Positions 22,973 through 36,619 of a DNA stretch of 41,742 bases are shown piece after piece. Within the stretch, counting starts at the first letter, position 1. Every line of letters starts with the position of its first letter. Both the position numbers and the translations under genes were made by a program. Origin of the DNA: a virus; the IMG/VR virus record IMGVR_UViG_3300021373_003387, positions 1-41,742 of that record; one strand, 5' to 3'. The notes beneath the pieces were generated by a model that was not told where the DNA came from, searched no databases, and saw only the letters and a program-made list of their open reading frames with translations.

Positions 22973-23152
22973 GTGAGCGCAATTAAATATGCTAAGGGAA
23001 AAGACCTAAAGCCGGGCGACGTCGTGCAGCTTATAAACAAAGCTTCATTGCAAATTAGCAAAAATGACACTGAACGGGAAATTGTAACTTGCTCAGCCGG
23101 CAACCAAATTAAATACTCGCCAAATCACACTTTCAAAATTATTAACCAATGA
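22973..23152 (+). CDS. Small hypothetical protein
   Basis: 59 codons from GTG 22973 to TGA 23152. The GTG is preceded at 8-9 bases by GGAGGA, a good Shine-Dalgarno, and the TGA overlaps the ATG of the next gene (ATGA). The sequence MSAIKYAKGKDLKPGDVVQL has the look of a small beta-barrel domain (KPGDVVQLINKASLQISKND), and the middle has a single Cys. Function unknown; start and coupling support coding. Confidence 0.68.
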   Translation: MSAIKYAKGKDLKPGDVVQLINKASLQISKNDTEREIVTCSAGNQIKYSPNHTFKIINQ

Positions 23153-24114
23153 ACAAACTACTTAAAGACGTATCAGAATTCCACGAGAAATTCGGGTTGC
23201 AGCAACACCATAGGGCCCGGTTTTTATCTAAAGAAGAACACTCGTTCGCGCTAAAAGCTTTACGAGAAGAATTCGACGAGTGGGTGGACGCTTGCGCGGC
23301 CGGAGACCTTGAGGGTCAGCTTGACGCCTTGATCGATCTTATTTACTTCGCTTTAGGCCGAGCTCATATACAAGGGTTGCCGTTTGACGAAGCCTGGAAT
23401 AGGGTACAGACCGCTAACATGTCTAAAGTGAGGGCTAACAAAGCTAGCGACTCAAAAAGAGGTTCTAAGTTAGATGTGGTTAAGCCTGAAGGCTGGGAAG
23501 CTCCTGAATTTTCAGACCTTTTATCTCATAACAGCTTCGACCACAGCAACCCTAAATTCATCATTGTTGAAGGTTGCGACGCTTTAGGTAAAACAACTTT
23601 GGCTAAACGTTTAGCGAAGCATTACGATGCCGCATATTGGCACATGACTTCTACAAAAAACCTATCGCCTAAGCAAACCATGCGTGATTACTCGCTAAAC
23701 GCTTTAGATAATGTGGCGGAGAACTTAGCTAACGGAAAAAGCGTAGTATTAGATCGCTTTTGGCCATCTGAATTTTGTTATGGTTCAGAACTTAGAGGAG
23801 TCGATCTAAGCGGTGTTAGTGAAGTTGCAGAAAAATGTGCCGACTTAAACCCCCATTTTGTTTTCTGCTTTCATTATAACGGTGACAAAGCTTTAAAGCA
23901 GCACAAAAATAATGTAGATCCTGACCATCCTTACAAAGATGACTTGTACCTGAAAGTGTACCAAAATTATTTAGATCTTTTTGACTTGCAGGACAACCTA
24001 GCTAATTTTTTCCCGAACAAAATCGTCACGAAATACTTTAATGAGAGCGAAACTCCTGAAGATTCTTTCCAAAATTATATTCCTTTACTTCAATCTTACA
24101 TCTATGAGCGCTAA
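23149..24114 (+). CDS. MazG-like pyrophosphohydrolase fused to a thymidylate-kinase-like P-loop kinase
   Basis: 321 residues with two domains. Residues 1-100 are an all-alpha NTP-pyrophosphohydrolase fold, with E40-E41-x-x-E44 and a following D59-x-x-x-D63 as metal ligands (MazG/PRA-PH-like). Residues 135-321 are a P-loop kinase: Walker A GCDALGKTT at 142-150, and a thymidylate-kinase-like DRFWPSEFCYGSELRG at 202. In phages with hypermodified thymine, kinases of this kind phosphorylate 5-hydroxymethyl-dU within DNA. An ordinary dTMP kinase is the alternative. The neighbours are a thymidylate-synthase-fold enzyme and a dCMP deaminase, which fits the modification pathway; the in-DNA substrate is inference. 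Confidence 0.88.
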   Translation: MNKLLKDVSEFHEKFGLQQHHRARFLSKEEHSFALKALREEFDEWVDACAAGDLEGQLDALIDLIYFALGRAHIQGLPFDEAWNRVQTANMSKVRANKASDSKRGSKLDVVKPEGWEAPEFSDLLSHNSFDHSNPKFIIVEGCDALGKTTLAKRLAKHYDAAYWHMTSTKNLSPKQTMRDYSLNALDNVAENLANGKSVVLDRFWPSEFCYGSELRGVDLSGVSEVAEKCADLNPHFVFCFHYNGDKALKQHKNNVDPDHPYKDDLYLKVYQNYLDLFDLQDNLANFFPNKIVTKYFNESETPEDSFQNYIPLLQSYIYER

Positions 24115-24889
24115 TAATAATAATAACACCCGAAACGTAGACAACGTTTGGCTTTCTACGCTACACCGGCTGCTGCAAGCGAAGAAAACTAGCCCGAGAA
24201 GCTTTGAGACTAGGGAAATAATCAACCACACTTCAGTAGTTGACATGTCAGATCCCGTAGTGAAAAACAAAGCTCGCAAAATGAACTACGCTTTCATGTA
24301 TGCCGAAGCTTATTGGATCCTTTCTGGTAGTAACATGGCACAAGACATTGCACCTTACTGCAAGCCTATCGCAAAATTCTCTGACGATGGCGTCCGGTTC
24401 GATGGAGCTTATGGCCCTATGGTTGTGCAGCAAATCAGATACTGCGTGGACTGTCTTAATTCTGATCTTCTTAGTCGGCAAGCAGTCATGTCAATATGGA
24501 GGCCTAACCCAAGACCAAGCAAAGACATACCTTGCACAGTGTCATTGCAGTTTTTAGTCAGAGATGGCAAAATAAACTGCATCGCAAACATGAGATCTAG
24601 TGACATCTGGCTAGGCTGGGTCTACGACGTTTTTAACTTTAGCTGCATTGCAAACTACATTCGCTTAAGCTTAAAACATTCGCTGCGTTTAGGCAATTTA
24701 TACTTAAACGCGGCAAGTCAACATTTGTACGAATCTGACGCCGAAAAAGCTCAAAAAGTGGTTGATTCTTTCCCATCTGACGCGATCCATCCGGTTTTAA
24801 GCCCTCCTATTTGGCGGAATGTGCTCCCTTCTGACTTTCTGCATAATCTTAAGGATTTAAGAGACAAAAATGAGCACCGAGCCGAATAA
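24104..24889 (+). CDS. Thymidylate-synthase-fold nucleotide hydroxymethylase candidate
   Basis: 261 residues; I chose ATG 24104 (MSANNNNNTRNV) over an upstream ATG at 24041 that lies inside the kinase gene. The core has RPSKDIPCTVSLQFLVRDGK with catalytic Cys144, then MRSSDIWLGWVYDVFNF. In thymidylate synthase the last motif is R-S-x-D-x-x-L-G-L-P-F-N-I; here Asp175 takes the place of the Asn that reads uracil. That change is known from phage T4 dCMP hydroxymethylase, while phage hydroxymethylases of the dUMP type also vary here. So this enzyme probably makes 5-hydroxymethyl-dUMP or -dCMP from methylene-tetrahydrofolate. Plain thymidylate synthase is less likely. It overlaps the deaminase gene by 20 bases. 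Confidence 0.85.
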   Translation: MSANNNNNTRNVDNVWLSTLHRLLQAKKTSPRSFETREIINHTSVVDMSDPVVKNKARKMNYAFMYAEAYWILSGSNMAQDIAPYCKPIAKFSDDGVRFDGAYGPMVVQQIRYCVDCLNSDLLSRQAVMSIWRPNPRPSKDIPCTVSLQFLVRDGKINCIANMRSSDIWLGWVYDVFNFSCIANYIRLSLKHSLRLGNLYLNAASQHLYESDAEKAQKVVDSFPSDAIHPVLSPPIWRNVLPSDFLHNLKDLRDKNEHRAE

Positions 24890-25307
24890 CAACATGCAAA
24901 GAATTAGCAAAATCGAATACGCTTTAGAAATAGCTAAAGTCTGCGCCTTGAGATCAGAAGATCCTCATAGAAAAGTTGGCGCGGTCGGCTTATCAAAAGA
25001 CGGCAGAATAGTTTCAACCGGTTACAATGGATTAGCGCCTGGTAAAGAAGTCAGCGAGGCGTTTTGGTTAGACCGCACTGGGCGGCTCCCATACGTTATC
25101 CATGCCGAAGCTAATATGTTAGCTAGGTGTAAACTAGGAGAAGTTTATTATGTGGCTTGTACGCTATCTCCATGCATAGAATGTATGAAGCTAATGATTG
25201 CGCACGGCGTAAAAGAAATTTACTACATTGAAGAATATGAAAGAGACACTAAAGCATTTGATCTCGCCTCATTTTACGGCATCACACTGATGCAAATTGC
25301 TAACTAA
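24870..25307 (+). CDS. dCMP deaminase
   Basis: 145 residues. HAE at 78-80 and PCIEC at 101-105 give the zinc ligands H78, C102 and C105 and the proton shuttle E80, the cytidine/dCMP deaminase signature, within a GYNGLAPGKE segment that is typical of dCMP deaminases. It converts dCMP to dUMP, the substrate of thymidylate-synthase-fold enzymes such as the one upstream, whose 3' end it overlaps by 20 bases. A start at Met9 (24894) would remove the overlap; I keep the longer frame. Confidence 0.9.
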   Translation: MSTEPNNNMQRISKIEYALEIAKVCALRSEDPHRKVGAVGLSKDGRIVSTGYNGLAPGKEVSEAFWLDRTGRLPYVIHAEANMLARCKLGEVYYVACTLSPCIECMKLMIAHGVKEIYYIEEYERDTKAFDLASFYGITLMQIAN

Positions 25308-25323
25308 ATAACTAAACACAACT

Positions 25324-25722
25324 ATGTCACTAGAATCAGAAATCAAAAAACTGCGCGAAGCTATCGCAGAAAATACTGCAACAAACCTCCAACTTTTGGA
25401 TGTTATGTCCCAATCTTCTAATACGGCAAAGCAAAAGGTCGAACAGAAAGTCGAAGAAAAGGTCGAACAGAAAGTCGAAGAAAAGGTCGAACAGAAAGTT
25501 GAAGAAAAGGTCGAAGAAAAGGTCGAAGAAAAGGTCGAACAGAAAGTCGAAGAAAAGGTCGTAACTCTAGCAGATATTAGAGCTCTCGCTAGAGTGCTGA
25601 TCAAAGCAAATAGATCTGACGAAGTTCGAAGCATCTTGGCTAAATTTGGGGCCGAGACACTTACAGAGATCGACACAAAAGATTACGCCCAAGTCGCTAT
25701 GATGATTGAGGAGTTAGGTTAA
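25324..25722 (+). CDS. Protein with ten KVEQ/KVEE tetrapeptide repeats
   Basis: 132 residues. Residues 1-37 are helical (MSLESEIKKLREAIAENTAT). Residues 38-77 are ten tandem K-V-E-(Q/E) units coded by a 12-base repeat. Residues 80-132 (LADIRALARVLIKANRSDEV ... MMIEELG) are a compact helical domain found in phage proteins of recombination/replication loci, where similar proteins sit beside DUF2800 nucleases. The repeated linker is highly charged and should be an extended helix. The start follows a leader ending CACAACT, without a Shine-Dalgarno. Role unknown; possibly a partner of the nuclease gene 2 bases downstream. Confidence 0.75.
   Translation: MSLESEIKKLREAIAENTATNLQLLDVMSQSSNTAKQKVEQKVEEKVEQKVEEKVEQKVEEKVEEKVEEKVEQKVEEKVVTLADIRALARVLIKANRSDEVRSILAKFGAETLTEIDTKDYAQVAMMIEELG
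25435..25554 (+). repeat. 12-bp tandem repeat, ten units
   Basis: Ten in-frame units related to AAGGTCGAACAG and AAAGTCGAAGAA lie within the gene at 25324. Units differ only at the wobble position of Lys or Val codons and in CAG/GAA. Perfectly in-frame 12-base units can gain or lose copies by slippage. Confidence 0.92.
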
Positions 25723-32167: not shown

Positions 32168-32329
32168 ATGAAAATTGAGAAAAATACTAATGGGGGCTGG
32201 TCAATATCTGTCAACGGACGACTAGTCGGAAACTACAAAACGAAGCAGAACGCTCAAGCTGTTGCCGATCTTAGCGTCATTTCACCTAATGCGCTTCGCT
32301 CGTTTTTCGCTAGAAACTTTGGGGAGTAA
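32168..32329 (+). CDS. Small hypothetical protein
   Basis: 53 codons from ATG 32168 (MKIEKNTNGGWSISVNGRLV) to TAA 32327-32329, with the C terminus reading NALRSFFARNFGE. A short beta hairpin at the start and a helix at the end are likely. It follows the previous stop by 6 bases and its 3' end carries the Shine-Dalgarno (GGGGAG) of the next gene. Function unknown. Confidence 0.6.
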   Translation: MKIEKNTNGGWSISVNGRLVGNYKTKQNAQAVADLSVISPNALRSFFARNFGE

Positions 32330-32333
32330 AAAC

Positions 32334-33191
32334 ATGGAAGTAGGAGATTTAGTGCAAGTTAAAGTGGACGGCGAAATCGTTGACGCCACTTTTCAAGATT
32401 GGAGACCATGCGGTAAGTACGCGATCGTGCTTTTCGGCGGCAAGAAAATTTACCGGAAGCCGATAAATAGTTCTAGCTTTGGCGCTAAGCCGGTACAGCA
32501 GAGCCTTTACCATATCAACGAAAGATTCGAATTTATCGAAAACATTGTTGACATGGTTGCTTTAGGAGAAAGCAAGTCAGCGATTATTTCAGGTAGCGGC
32601 GGACTCGGAAAGACGTACACGGTTCTTGAACGTTTACACAAAGCAGGCTTTCAAGAAGATATTGACTACAAGATGGTCAAAGGCTTCACAACGCCCAAGT
32701 CGCTATACAGACTGCTATTTACGAACCAAGACAAGATCGTAATTTTTGATGACACAGATAGCGTATGGCAGGACCAGACGGCAGTCTCTTTACTTAAAGG
32801 TGCTTTAGATAGCTACGACGCACGGAAGCTTTCGTGGATGACTTCAAGAGGAGACGACGGAATTCCTGAGACTTTCGAATTTAAAGGCAAAATCATTTTT
32901 ATTTCTAACTTACCGCTGTCTAAATTAGACCAAGCTGTGTTAAGCAGAGCTTTGTATGTAGACGTGAGCATGTCTCCTCAAGAAAAAATCGACCGCATCA
33001 AGTTTATTTCACCAGAAATTCGTCCGGAGATAGACACGGAAGTCAAAAAAGAAGTGCTCGACTTTCTAGAATCTAAAGCCGGCCAAATTGGCGACTTAAA
33101 CATACGCACTTTTTTGAAAGGGCTAGAAATAAGGCTTTCTGGAAACACTAATTGGGAGCAGATGTTTGACTATATGGCAACAGCATTTTAA
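32334..33191 (+). CDS. AAA-type ATPase
   Basis: 285 residues from ATG 32334 (MEVGDLVQVKVDG), preceded by GGGGAG at 8 bases; a longer frame to 32262 overlaps the previous gene and has a poorer start. Residues 1-45 resemble a small beta-barrel (KPTGD-like MEVGDLVQVKVDG). Walker A GSGGLGKT is at 87-94, Walker B FDDTDS at about 138-143, then a sensor-1-like IIFISNLP and sensor-2 region. It could be a helicase loader, a clamp-loader-like or remodelling ATPase. It is tightly linked to the modification genes that follow; a role in that pathway is unproven. Confidence 0.85.
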   Translation: MEVGDLVQVKVDGEIVDATFQDWRPCGKYAIVLFGGKKIYRKPINSSSFGAKPVQQSLYHINERFEFIENIVDMVALGESKSAIISGSGGLGKTYTVLERLHKAGFQEDIDYKMVKGFTTPKSLYRLLFTNQDKIVIFDDTDSVWQDQTAVSLLKGALDSYDARKLSWMTSRGDDGIPETFEFKGKIIFISNLPLSKLDQAVLSRALYVDVSMSPQEKIDRIKFISPEIRPEIDTEVKKEVLDFLESKAGQIGDLNIRTFLKGLEIRLSGNTNWEQMFDYMATAF

Positions 33192-33193
33192 CT

Positions 33194-34195
33194 ATGACGA
33201 ACGGAAAAATTTTATTGGCGGGAGTGTTGCAGAATCCTCCTACGCGGCTAACTTCACACAACGCAGGCTGGACTTATGTGGTCAAAAGCATGGCTGAGCA
33301 AAGGTACCGTAAAACTGTAGAAATAGCGAAAGGCGGGGAGCATTGGTCTGATTTTGATCGAGTCGTCTTGACTGAAGGGGTAAACTTCAGAGCTGGCACA
33401 TGGAACTTATTTGGAGGAGTTTCTGAAGCGTTAAAGGCAAGAGTTAGAACTTTTAGATGGGCAAAAGATTCGTGTCTTTTTGTCGACACGATCGACCAAT
33501 GTCCGGACTACAAAGACTTAGCTCTTAAAAGAAACTTGGAACCTTTCGCATTAGACGGAAAAATCGACTCTGAAACAACGTGGAATTTTATTCCGGCGGC
33601 TAAAACTTTCGTGCTAGGAGACTCGCACAGCATATCAGTGTACGAGCCCGGCGCAAACATACGTAGGATAGATGGCAAAACGTTGTACGGCGCTTTGAAA
33701 ATTGGCCTTGAAAACCTTGTCCCTTTACGCGAAAACCCTTATGAGAAACTTGTGTTGTATTTTGGAAACATAGACTTACGCTTCCACATCTATGACGGTA
33801 TAAGTGGAATTGATACTTTGCTCAAGCATCTGTTTTGGCAAACTGAAGCTTTGCTTGTTTTAGGGCACTGTAAATCTGTAAAACTTGTCATGCCACTACC
33901 TATTGAGACAGAAGATCGCAAAATACCAAAGTCTGGCCAATATAAAGGACGTAATTTTTTAGGCTCGGCTGAAAATCGTAAAATGTTCCGTCGGTATTGG
34001 GTAAATAAGTGCGAATCTATTTTTAAGAAACTGATAAAGTCCGGTGAAGTCCACTTAGAAAAATGGAACCACCTAAAACTAGACGATGAAGGCTTTCTAC
34101 TTCAAAACCAGATGGAAGCTAAACAGAGTGTCCATTTAGCGCCTCACTCTTATTCTGCCATGTTTACAAATTATATAACCAATGGAAACTACTAA
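33194..34195 (+). CDS. Two-part protein with SGNH-hydrolase-like motifs
   Basis: 333 residues. The N-terminal ~130 residues are alpha/beta (FDRVVLTEGVNFRAGTWNLF at about 54-73) and match nothing I recognise. From about 135 the protein reads like an SGNH/GDSL hydrolase: FVLGDSHSISVY with nucleophile S144, an oxyanion-type YFGNIDLRFHI at 189-199, and SVHLAPHSYS with His314. The Asp expected three residues before the His is Gln311 here, so the catalytic triad may be altered. It overlaps the transferase candidate by 14 bases. SGNH enzymes hydrolyse or transfer acyl groups; acylation or deacylation of a modified base is one possibility, unproven. Confidence 0.72.
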   Translation: MTNGKILLAGVLQNPPTRLTSHNAGWTYVVKSMAEQRYRKTVEIAKGGEHWSDFDRVVLTEGVNFRAGTWNLFGGVSEALKARVRTFRWAKDSCLFVDTIDQCPDYKDLALKRNLEPFALDGKIDSETTWNFIPAAKTFVLGDSHSISVYEPGANIRRIDGKTLYGALKIGLENLVPLRENPYEKLVLYFGNIDLRFHIYDGISGIDTLLKHLFWQTEALLVLGHCKSVKLVMPLPIETEDRKIPKSGQYKGRNFLGSAENRKMFRRYWVNKCESIFKKLIKSGEVHLEKWNHLKLDDEGFLLQNQMEAKQSVHLAPHSYSAMFTNYITNGNY

Positions 34196-35126
34196 ATACT
34201 ACGACGACTTTCTGCAATACTTTTCCAAAGCGAAGCTTTTAGAGGAAGGCAAACACCCTGTCGGTGATCCTCTCATGGATACGGTCCCAATCTATGACTG
34301 CGTCCATAGGAGATGCGCTGGGTTCAGCAACGTTCTTGAAGACGTAATGCGTAAAGACAAAACTTATTTGCTGAAAGGGAAAACTTTTAAGGAGATTTTG
34401 ACAGTATTTTTAGTCCATAGACTAACTGGGTCTGGTGCGAGTTTTGAGCACGACCACGGCTATAGGAATTCTTGCATTTTTGAAATGTTGGAGGCATGCC
34501 CAGATTCATCAGAATGGGTTGACTTTCTTATTGAAAACAAAAAGCCGATTTTTACTTCTATTGGAAATCAGATCCCACCTTTCCCAAAGCCGGAGTCTCC
34601 ATACAAAAAAGGCAGCCACGTCTATTTTGCTAAATACCTCAAGCGGCTTGTCTCAGAATTTGCAGATTTTTTAGACTTGTCAGGTCGATCTGACATCCAA
34701 GACGCCGTCAATTTCTGCCTAGATTGGCATAAAGAAAACGGCTTAAAGAGGTTCGTTTTTGTTTTAACCGCATTTGCTATGGATGTCGCTGAGTATTTTC
34801 CGGAAAAAGTAAACCCAGACTCAGACGTATACTTAGGAAAAAATGCTGTGGAGGCGCTAGAGCTGATTTTCGGCCGGAGTTTTGCAGGCCACAAATCACA
34901 GAACATTGCTATTAGACGTCTAATCAAAGCAACCGGTTCAGTGAACACTCCCTACGATATGGAAGACGTTGTCTGCGACTACATACGCTACGTCGAAAAC
35001 TACCTACCGAAAAAAGGTTACGAAGAACACAAAGAAACACTTCTAAATAACTCTTTAATAGAAGACCACCCTAAAGGCAGACAATTTTCAGACATCCTTG
35101 GGTCAATTGTAAACCATGGCTCATAA
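34182..35126 (+). CDS. Candidate amino acid:DNA transferase (aGPT-PPlase/AADT-like)
   Basis: 314 residues, mostly helical. The middle has FKEILTVFLVHRLTGSGASF followed by EHDHGYRNSCIFEML, and there is a basic, aromatic, Lys-rich C-terminal region. The GSGASFxxDHGYRN stretch is reminiscent of the HhH-glycosylase-related family named alpha-glutamyl/putrescinyl thymine pyrophosphorylase, shown for some phages to attach amino acids to phosphorylated hydroxymethyl-dU in DNA. I cannot align it, so the family label rests on pattern memory and on neighbours (kinase, hydroxymethylase, PLP enzyme). It overlaps both flanking genes, 14 and 11 bases. Alternatives: another DNA-binding helical enzyme. Confidence 0.5.
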   Translation: METTKYYDDFLQYFSKAKLLEEGKHPVGDPLMDTVPIYDCVHRRCAGFSNVLEDVMRKDKTYLLKGKTFKEILTVFLVHRLTGSGASFEHDHGYRNSCIFEMLEACPDSSEWVDFLIENKKPIFTSIGNQIPPFPKPESPYKKGSHVYFAKYLKRLVSEFADFLDLSGRSDIQDAVNFCLDWHKENGLKRFVFVLTAFAMDVAEYFPEKVNPDSDVYLGKNAVEALELIFGRSFAGHKSQNIAIRRLIKATGSVNTPYDMEDVVCDYIRYVENYLPKKGYEEHKETLLNNSLIEDHPKGRQFSDILGSIVNHGS

Positions 35127-36042
35127 CAACCACACAAAAAGCTTAAGAAATCAAGACTTAGACAACTTCTGCAGAGAAGACTACCTTGCTATGTGCCAAG
35201 GTTTTCAGTCTAGTTTCGACGTTCCAGACGTAAAAACTTTTAAGCTTGAGGATGGCAGAAAAATAAACGTAATAGACGAAAGCGAAATAGCTGTGGGATC
35301 CAAGTGCAGATTCGGTGAAATGCTGATAAAAAATTGCCCGCACAAGACTATTGTCTATGTTCAACCAAGGTTCGGATTTGCTGGCATATCGCTAACGTGG
35401 CTTTGCAAGCGGTACAAGAAAAAACTTGTGCTATTTATGCCCTCATCTAAAAAAGTCAGCGAACACCAAGCCTGGTGCATAGCCAACGGTTGCGAGCCTC
35501 ATTTTTATAGGATAGCCGCAATGCCGAATCTTAATAAGATTGCGAAAGAGTGGGCTGACCAGAACAACGCCTTTTTTGTGCCGTTAGGCCTCAGACATCC
35601 TCAAGTAACGGCCGCGGTAGTTAACACATGCGAAAGCTTGCGATCCGCTGGACACAATCCTGGCGCTATCTGGTGTGCAACCTCTACTGGAGTGCTTAAT
35701 AGAGGGCTTCAGATCGGCTTCCCAGGCTGCCAACTTCATGGTGTAGCTGTCGCCAGAAACATTAAAGAAGGCGAAAAAGGCACATCAACTCTTTTCTCAT
35801 ACCATAAAGCTTTCCCACAGTCTGTCGCGTCTAAGGTTTTTTCTCCGTTCGATTCTTGTGACAATTACGACCTAAAAGCTTGGGACATTTGTAGCCAGTA
35901 CGCTGACGACGGAGACTACTTTTGGAACGTCGCCGGAAATCTAAGGCTAAAGCGAGATTTTGTAGACAGTGTAGCGTCGAAAGTCGATTCTTATAGAGAC
36001 TGGGGAGAAATTAAAGACCCGCAGCATAGTCTCTTTTTATAA
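35116..36042 (+). CDS. Fold-type II PLP-dependent enzyme
   Basis: 308 residues. VGSKCRFGEMLI around 60-71 parallels the GGNKxRKLE motif of ACC deaminase/D-cysteine desulfhydrase enzymes, giving Lys63 as the Schiff-base candidate. QPRFGFAGISLTWLCKRYKK at 83-102 and FMPSSKKVSEHQAWCIANGC fit the tryptophan-synthase-beta fold, and CATSTGVLNRGL at 187-198 fits the phosphate-binding loop. In phages with amino-modified thymine, PLP enzymes process the amino acid attached to the base, for example by decarboxylation. It is the last early gene and overlaps the last late gene by 32 bases tail-to-tail. PLP assignment good; DNA-base role inferred. Confidence 0.75.
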   Translation: MAHNNHTKSLRNQDLDNFCREDYLAMCQGFQSSFDVPDVKTFKLEDGRKINVIDESEIAVGSKCRFGEMLIKNCPHKTIVYVQPRFGFAGISLTWLCKRYKKKLVLFMPSSKKVSEHQAWCIANGCEPHFYRIAAMPNLNKIAKEWADQNNAFFVPLGLRHPQVTAAVVNTCESLRSAGHNPGAIWCATSTGVLNRGLQIGFPGCQLHGVAVARNIKEGEKGTSTLFSYHKAFPQSVASKVFSPFDSCDNYDLKAWDICSQYADDGDYFWNVAGNLRLKRDFVDSVASKVDSYRDWGEIKDPQHSLFL

Positions 36043-36619
36043 AAAACGCTATGTCGTAGACGCTAAGATTGGCGTTAGAGATTGACGAATCAATCATAAT
36101 TTTTGCCCCATTAGCTACAAAAGTTGCATCAGCAAAAATTGGGAAGCTGACGCTAAATTCATGCACTGTACCAGTACCTTTAGTCATCGGAAAAAGATGC
36201 TCGATAATATAATTTGGCGTCGCGGTTCCGTCGTCAATTCGTAAATCAAAGTAAGCGCTTGGCGTTGTAGTTGTAGCTTTAAAGTCTGCACGTAAAGTGT
36301 AAACGTCTCCAACAGCTGCAGCATTTATTCGATTCGAAGACCATAACGAGTACGAGGAGCCTGCTGCATTTTTCGGCGCGTACGTTGTAACTGTCCCAGA
36401 GCCGAGTTCGTCATTAGTTAATTGTGCGATTGTGTTATTTATAGACAGCGTAGAAGACGACGTGTAGTTAGAGTCTTTTAAGTAAACCCATCCGACGCCG
36501 GAAGCATCTCTTATTGTCATTTTTCGAGAAGCTGGTGTGTTTGTTTCTACTTCTATAAGAGCCGTCGATCTATCGACCGAAGTTTCTGAAGGTAAATCCC
36601 CAATTGTATTATCTGCCAT
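36011..36619 (-). CDS. Tail protein, last gene of the late arm
   Basis: 202 residues. The start MADNTIGDLPSETSVDRSTA, with the phrase LIEVETNTPASRKMTIRDAS, is typical of N-terminal attachment regions of phage fibre or tip proteins. The rest (about 60-200) is a beta-sandwich-like domain with YTLRADFKATTTTPSAYFDL and FPIFADATFVANGAKIMIDS resembling carbohydrate-binding modules. It lies 4 bases after gpJ. Probably a surface receptor-binding protein, unproven. Confidence 0.7.
   Translation of the reverse strand: MADNTIGDLPSETSVDRSTALIEVETNTPASRKMTIRDASGVGWVYLKDSNYTSSSTLSINNTIAQLTNDELGSGTVTTYAPKNAAGSSYSLWSSNRINAAAVGDVYTLRADFKATTTTPSAYFDLRIDDGTATPNYIIEHLFPMTKGTGTVHEFSVSFPIFADATFVANGAKIMIDSSISNANLSVYDIAFFIKRDYAAGL

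Follow-up and report, generated by a model that had tools for sequence, protein, structure and literature searches.

A conserved gene trio of uncultured phages as a candidate cassette for amino-acid-like decoration of 5-hydroxymethylcytosine

Side chains built from free amino acids are known on 5-hydroxymethyluracil. In the pathways of phages M6 and ViI (see PMC6449724, PMC9476957 and PMC9599517), a DNA kinase phosphorylates 5-hydroxymethyldeoxyuridine (hmdU) before the transfer (PMC6449724). The M6 cluster encodes gp51, an ADDT protein by Pfam, the PALP protein gp52, the radical SAM protein gp53, the 5-hmdU DNA kinase gp54 and the PF18723 helical protein gp55, a naming that agrees with phage SN1 (PMC9476957). 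The known phage decorations of 5-hydroxymethylcytosine (5hmC) are sugars, as in T4 and RB69, and a carbamoyl group (PMC6024577; PMC8670742), and a route joining an amino acid to a cytosine derivative, CmoX/CmoY, was reported in 2025 (PMC12783734). The subject of this report is a trio of overlapping genes, SGNH, MID and PALP, in the IMG/VR virus contig IMGVR_UViG_3300021373_003387, which was analysed over its whole length of 41,742 bases (the window). The trio is a genuine conserved cassette that recurs beyond chance. With a fair degree of probability it serves the post-replicative hypermodification of 5hmC, the SGNH protein and MID decorating the base and PALP tailoring the adduct.

All three genes lie on the plus strand: SGNH at 33194-34195 (333 amino acids), MID at 34182-35126 (314 amino acids, all-helical) and PALP at 35116-36042 (308 amino acids), the last encoding a fold-type II pyridoxal 5′-phosphate (PLP) enzyme. 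SGNH overlaps MID by 14 bases and MID overlaps PALP by 11, and the trio closes the plus strand arm because a minus strand gene at 36011-36619 converges on PALP. An earlier interpretation made from the letters alone (the sequence-only reading) had described this arrangement, which the open reading frame coordinates and the convergent gene bear out. Its division of the products into an SGNH-like protein, a helical transferase-like protein and a fold-type II PLP enzyme likewise agrees with the folds, profiles and conserved residues described below.

It had also proposed looking for the trio in other phages. IMG/VR was searched with each trio family separately, and 80 loci per family were taken among the matches listed (240 in total; hundreds more match). 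The one-strand order SGNH-MID-PALP was found in 44/80, 71/80 and 66/80 loci of the three independently seeded sets and recurs in most of the 240 loci. MID and PALP overlap in 149 loci, SGNH and MID in 111. In locus L190 SGNH and MID form a single protein of 713 amino acids, directly followed by PALP and a thymidylate synthase (TS)-family gene, and the two are fused in locus L024 too. Three other loci (L226, L238 and L253) hold SGNH, MID and a TS-family gene, and PALP was not found in them; this suggests a core of SGNH plus MID, with PALP as a tailoring add-on. Several hundred IMG/VR contigs carry the trio, some from small siphovirus-like genomes and some from T4-like ones. Nucleotide searches of deposited phages returned no match, and a literature search, with subscription papers outside its reach, found no paper describing the trio.

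The base on which the cassette would act is suggested by the enzyme encoded near it. In the TS family (E. coli numbering), Asn at position 177 denotes a dUMP enzyme and Asp a dCMP enzyme; in the MetaGPA study, Asp177 plus position 147 marked metagenome contigs with modified cytosine, and TS, PRA-PH and dCMP deaminase co-occurred with such cytosine (PMC8670742). The window encodes a TS-family pyrimidine hydroxymethylase (24104-24889, plus strand) with Asp177 and Thr147, a putative source of 5-hydroxymethyl-dCMP (hmdCMP). The cassette is linked to this cytosine-type enzyme: TS-family proteins in trio loci carry Asp177 in 124/124 cases and Thr147 in 123/124 (40 groups at 70% identity), and the gene stands at most three genes from the cassette in 113/223 loci. 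Among the controls, the dCMP hydroxymethylase gp42 of phage 44RR shows Asp177/Thr147 and the td protein of the same phage Asn177/His147, while the hmdU phages M6, CampHawk, PhiW-14 and a Kuttervirus all show Asn177/Asn147. Given Asp177 in the window and its trio-linked relatives versus Asn177 in the hmdU phages, the substrate of the trio is most likely 5hmC, not hydroxymethyluracil.

These residues do not support the hydroxymethyl-dU base assumed in the sequence-only reading. A pathway in which a kinase first phosphorylates hmdU in the DNA and an amino acid is then joined to it, as in M6 or ViI, would suit the transferase-like fold of MID and the kinship of PALP to the M6 PLP enzyme, and in a related pelagiphage group TS together with aGPT-Pplase1 was interpreted as thymidine hypermodification (PMC9599517). 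However, the window enzyme differs from those of the hmdU phages at positions 177 and 147, as do all 124 trio neighbours at position 177, and the search for a 5-hmdU DNA kinase in the window and 50 further records (49 trio contigs and 44RR) found none, which makes this pathway very improbable. A further account takes the TS homologue for a dCMP methylase, so that the DNA would hold 5-methylcytosine and the trio would have nothing to do with a hydroxymethyl group. Replacing Asn177 with Asp does convert thymidylate synthase to a dCMP methylase (PMC8670742), yet the combination Asp177/Thr147 is that of the 44RR hydroxymethylase, and a plain methylase leaves unexplained why the cassette keeps a TS-family gene close; this is the least probable account considered. 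As for the hydroxymethylase or P-loop kinase that the sequence-only reading expected beside trio homologues, the former is usually near, although of the cytosine type, while a P-loop kinase stands beside the trio in only about one fifth of loci and has nucleotide-kinase-like relatives.

Asp177/Thr147 also occurs in gp014 of Pelagibacter phage HTVC200P (L021:8354-9172), annotated as a thymidylate synthase. Judged by these residues, this cultured pelagiphage may make 5hmC, whereas related pelagiphage TS genes were interpreted as thymidine modification (PMC9599517). HTVC200P provides the best match to the TS-family protein of the window (55%), and a Pelagibacter host was considered for the window and dropped, as its terminase and polymerase point elsewhere. 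Two genes adjoin the TS-family gene on the same strand, the three lying about 9 kb upstream of the trio. The first (23149-24114) encodes a fusion of a MazG/PRA-PH pyrophosphohydrolase with a thymidylate-kinase-like domain, with putative roles in dCTP removal and as hmdCMP kinase, and the second a dCMP deaminase (24870-25307). Between the deaminase gene and a PD-(D/E)XK nuclease gene lies a low-complexity VEEKVEQK-type repeat of 132 amino acids (25324-25722). Elsewhere, a small DUF6378-type protein (family F2; e.g., L237:1442-1738) adjoins SGNH, two genes upstream of MID, in 121 loci; it is probably a nucleotide pyrophosphatase, for instance of a dCTPase-like kind.

MID is the candidate transferase of the cassette. 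Its AlphaFold model, built from 22 diverse sequences, has a predicted TM score (pTM) of 0.89. In a Foldseek search of BFVD, close homologues ranked first, one of them annotated with an amino acid:DNA transferase domain, and were followed, at 9-13% identity, by ADDT, aGPT-Pplase1 and 5-hmdU-kinase-helical (PF18723) proteins, with E 2.7e-4 for one of them. The predicted structure of MID thus resembles the amino acid:DNA transferase/aGPT-Pplase fold. The C-terminal signature G-x-[NG]-[ACP]...C[DE]xx[KR][YW] is found in 62/64 MID proteins, 13/16 PF18723-type proteins and 0/1575 other neighbour proteins, a count weakened by the pattern having been composed after inspection of the sequences. When MID was compared profile to profile with sequences of the PF18723 type, the PF18724 type and 44RR, nothing reached significance; this test is insensitive, because the accepted families PF18723 and PF18724 miss each other too (1.6% probability), and it was superseded by the fold comparison and by the motif count with its background. 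Four MID sequences and a paralogue gave zero tblastn matches among 50,697 deposited phage records.

This paralogue, another helical protein, matches MID at the profile level with 89% probability and adjoins it in 53 loci (e.g., L103:7948-9000), often between MID and PALP. Gly219, Glu261, Asp262 and Cys265 of MID are invariant, and their equivalents are retained in the paralogue, which may be a second transferase. At L074:3666-4478 and related loci (family F53), MID is immediately preceded by an HhH-GPD (endonuclease III-like) gene and has the paralogue downstream; in several of these contigs SGNH and PALP are not nearby, a possible variant cassette.

The trio might also decorate no base at all. 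MID could act in a glycosylase- or nuclease-like manner on unmodified host DNA, or SGNH and PALP could serve host take-over, with the use of 5hmC being incidental. The model of MID has a weak likeness to endonuclease III-type glycosylases (an HTV1 protein), an HhH-GPD gene adjoins MID in some loci, and nucleases that attack cytosine DNA are indeed present in phages with hydroxymethylated cytosine (PMC8056088). But base-modification proteins are the stronger fold matches to MID, and both the SGNH-MID fusion and the conserved PALP partner fit this explanation poorly. The relatives of PALP, moreover, are found among base-modification genes in M6, and other phages have them adjoining DNA methylase genes or embedded in these. 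A role of the trio outside base decoration is improbable.

The SGNH protein consists of an N-terminal alpha/beta part (about residues 1-120) and an SGNH domain (about 135-330). Its AlphaFold model (pTM 0.89) matches GDSL/SGNH esterases in the PDB by Foldseek with probability 1.0 and a best E of 2.6e-5, and the sequence matches phrog_13881 (E 9e-37) and phrog_17781. Across 212 homologues, the GDSH motif of block I, which contains Ser144, and an SVH motif are invariant, as are His314 and, six residues before it, Glu308. Block III reads GNID instead of GxND and is nearly invariant, with Asn192 present in 209/212. SGNH on its own has homologues in Aeromonas T4-like phages and Tenacibaculum phages. 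The protein would presumably act on the 5-hydroxymethyl group or its adduct.

PALP is, by sequence, a fold-type II PLP-dependent enzyme related to that of the M6 pathway. It matches phrog_7093 at E 2e-32 and the Pfam family PALP (PF00291) at E 5.6e-7, with 29.6 bits under the curated cut-off of 35 bits, which M6 gp52 passes (39.5 bits). With M6 gp52 it aligns by BLASTP at E 2e-7, and the two have a C-terminal YDLKAW...FWN block in common. Its profile matches cysteine synthases (E 2.7e-4) with K63 aligned to the catalytic PLP lysine (KxR region), and K63 is invariant in 215 PALP sequences. The sequence-only reading had taken the trio for a base-hypermodification cassette, and this is supported, as is its parallel to M6-type amino-acid chemistry, through the PALP/gp52 match and through gp51 being an ADDT protein.

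A second tie between the PALP family and DNA modification comes from two other phages: the PALP domain of Erythrobacter phage ZS04 lies within one protein together with ParB-like and DNA methylase parts (L001:2182-4764), and in Microcystis phage Mae-JY30 PALP directly follows ParB-like/DNA methylase-type genes (L002:6237-8672). To our knowledge, this link has not been described.

Where PALP acts in the pathway is the point on which the main rival explanation differs. PALP would work upstream, making a free non-protein amino acid by beta-replacement on an activated serine, MID would join this to 5hmC, and the SGNH protein would be an acyl-handling partner. The nearest solved relatives of PALP by profile are cysteine synthases/O-acetylserine sulfhydrylases, ester groups are handled by SGNH enzymes, and the cassette comes without a DNA kinase or an isomerase. 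On the other hand, PRxGFAG stands in PALP in place of the canonical carboxylate-binding loop TSGNTG. The related M6 enzyme is part of a DNA hypermodification cassette (PMC9476957). In the M6 pathway it reportedly acts on the DNA adduct, which also counts against an upstream role. The upstream role is unlikely. PALP as a tailoring enzyme of the adduct is the role preferred here.

The genes that would make this an M6-type pathway were sought as well. Neither the window nor any of the 50 records tested (49 trio contigs and 44RR) has a match to the 5-hmdU DNA kinase family PF18748, with M6 positive as the control. A search for radical SAM in the window and 14 trio contigs gave no hit, the M6 control matching weakly; PF18723 and PF18724 had no significant match in the trio contigs tested; and relatives of the M6 radical SAM protein, ADDT, kinase and aGPT-Pplase1 were not found among about 4,900 neighbour genes. 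The phosphorylated intermediate of the sequence-only reading is not supported, and the P-loop gene upstream of the trio (32262-33191) is AAA-type. Its product was tried as a DNA kinase and rejected, since it matches phrog_1250 and T4 NrdC.10. The 44RR genome has its NrdC.10 gene three genes away from the SGNH fusion.

For the substrate, the donor, the order of reactions and the final base, we infer the following. The dCMP-type hydroxymethylase would produce hmdCMP; the MazG-kinase fusion would clear dCTP and phosphorylate hmdCMP, after which 5hmC would enter the DNA. MID would flip out 5hmC and attach to its 5-CH2 group an amino acid or a comparable small molecule. The SGNH protein probably works together with MID, given their fusion in some phages, and both would act on the same carbon. 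Most likely it would activate the hydroxyl as an ester, replacing the DNA kinase; alternatively, it might trim an acyl group. The missing kinase and isomerase point to activation as an ester or to direct exchange at the methylene. PALP would then use PLP to remodel the amino acid on the base, for instance by decarboxylation. Since no radical SAM isomerase was seen, attachment through the side chain is probable, leaving the alpha-amine free for PLP. The complete kinase-free route, in which SGNH-MID replaces the 5hmC hydroxyl by ester or direct-exchange chemistry and PALP reshapes the amino acid into a new DNA base, is put forward tentatively and is, taken as a whole, rather unlikely.

Several points weigh against decoration of 5hmC by the trio. 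The TM scores of MID to named base-modification families are moderate (0.44-0.55), its matches in the PDB are sub-threshold and include 8-oxoguanine and 3-methyladenine glycosylases, it has no significant Pfam, sequence or hhalign match to PF18724 or PF18723, and its signature was composed after the fact. In the 212 SGNH homologues, the Asp of the block V DxxH is not conserved, Gln or Lys mostly standing three residues before the His, and the role given to this protein is a guess. PALP could make a free donor instead of acting on DNA, and the TS homologue could be a dCMP methylase. Many of the contigs are also fragments, so that absences are soft and count as a pattern, not singly.

The trio nevertheless probably confers amino-acid-like decoration on hydroxymethylated cytosine, a kind of base chemistry hitherto described chiefly for modified thymine. 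If so, it extends the amino-acid chemistry to cytosine while dispensing with the DNA kinase of the known pathway, and should the kinase-free route hold, hundreds of uncultured phages would contain a new DNA base. As the trio occurs in several hundred IMG/VR contigs and MID is unmatched in the deposited phages searched, a DNA modification common among environmental phages may have been overlooked. The three defined genes could also provide new tools for labelling 5hmC.

Among known systems, the M6 cluster resembles the trio in having a gene of transferase fold, predicted in the case of MID, beside a related fold-type II PLP gene and, in the genome, a TS-family hydroxymethylase and a dCMP deaminase. 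The trio differs in its dCMP-type hydroxymethylase, in having no 5-hmdU DNA kinase or radical SAM protein found, in the position of MID outside PF18723/PF18724 and in the additional SGNH protein. It is not filed as a member of the M6/ViI type, because two defining features, the dUMP-type enzyme and the DNA kinase, are lacking. The T4-like hydroxymethylcytosine phage 44RR has a dCMP hydroxymethylase and an SGNH homologue, ORF233c (about 30% identity), whose C-terminal fusion partner matches PF18723 weakly (E 0.0036 and 4e-4); neither PALP nor the MID family gave a match in this phage. The 5-carbamoyloxymethylcytosine phages of MetaGPA share an Asp177 TS homologue, PRA-PH, a dCMP deaminase and a post-replicative enzyme acting on 5hmC, but their decorating enzyme is a carbamoyltransferase, and the text mentions no SGNH or PLP enzymes (PMC8670742). 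The CmoX/CmoY system of Synechococcus phage S-B43 likewise places an amino acid on a cytosine derivative in phage DNA, carboxymethylcytosine-glycine, although it does so with a Cx-SAM methyltransferase homologue and an ATP-dependent amide ligase, both unrelated to the trio (PMC12783734).

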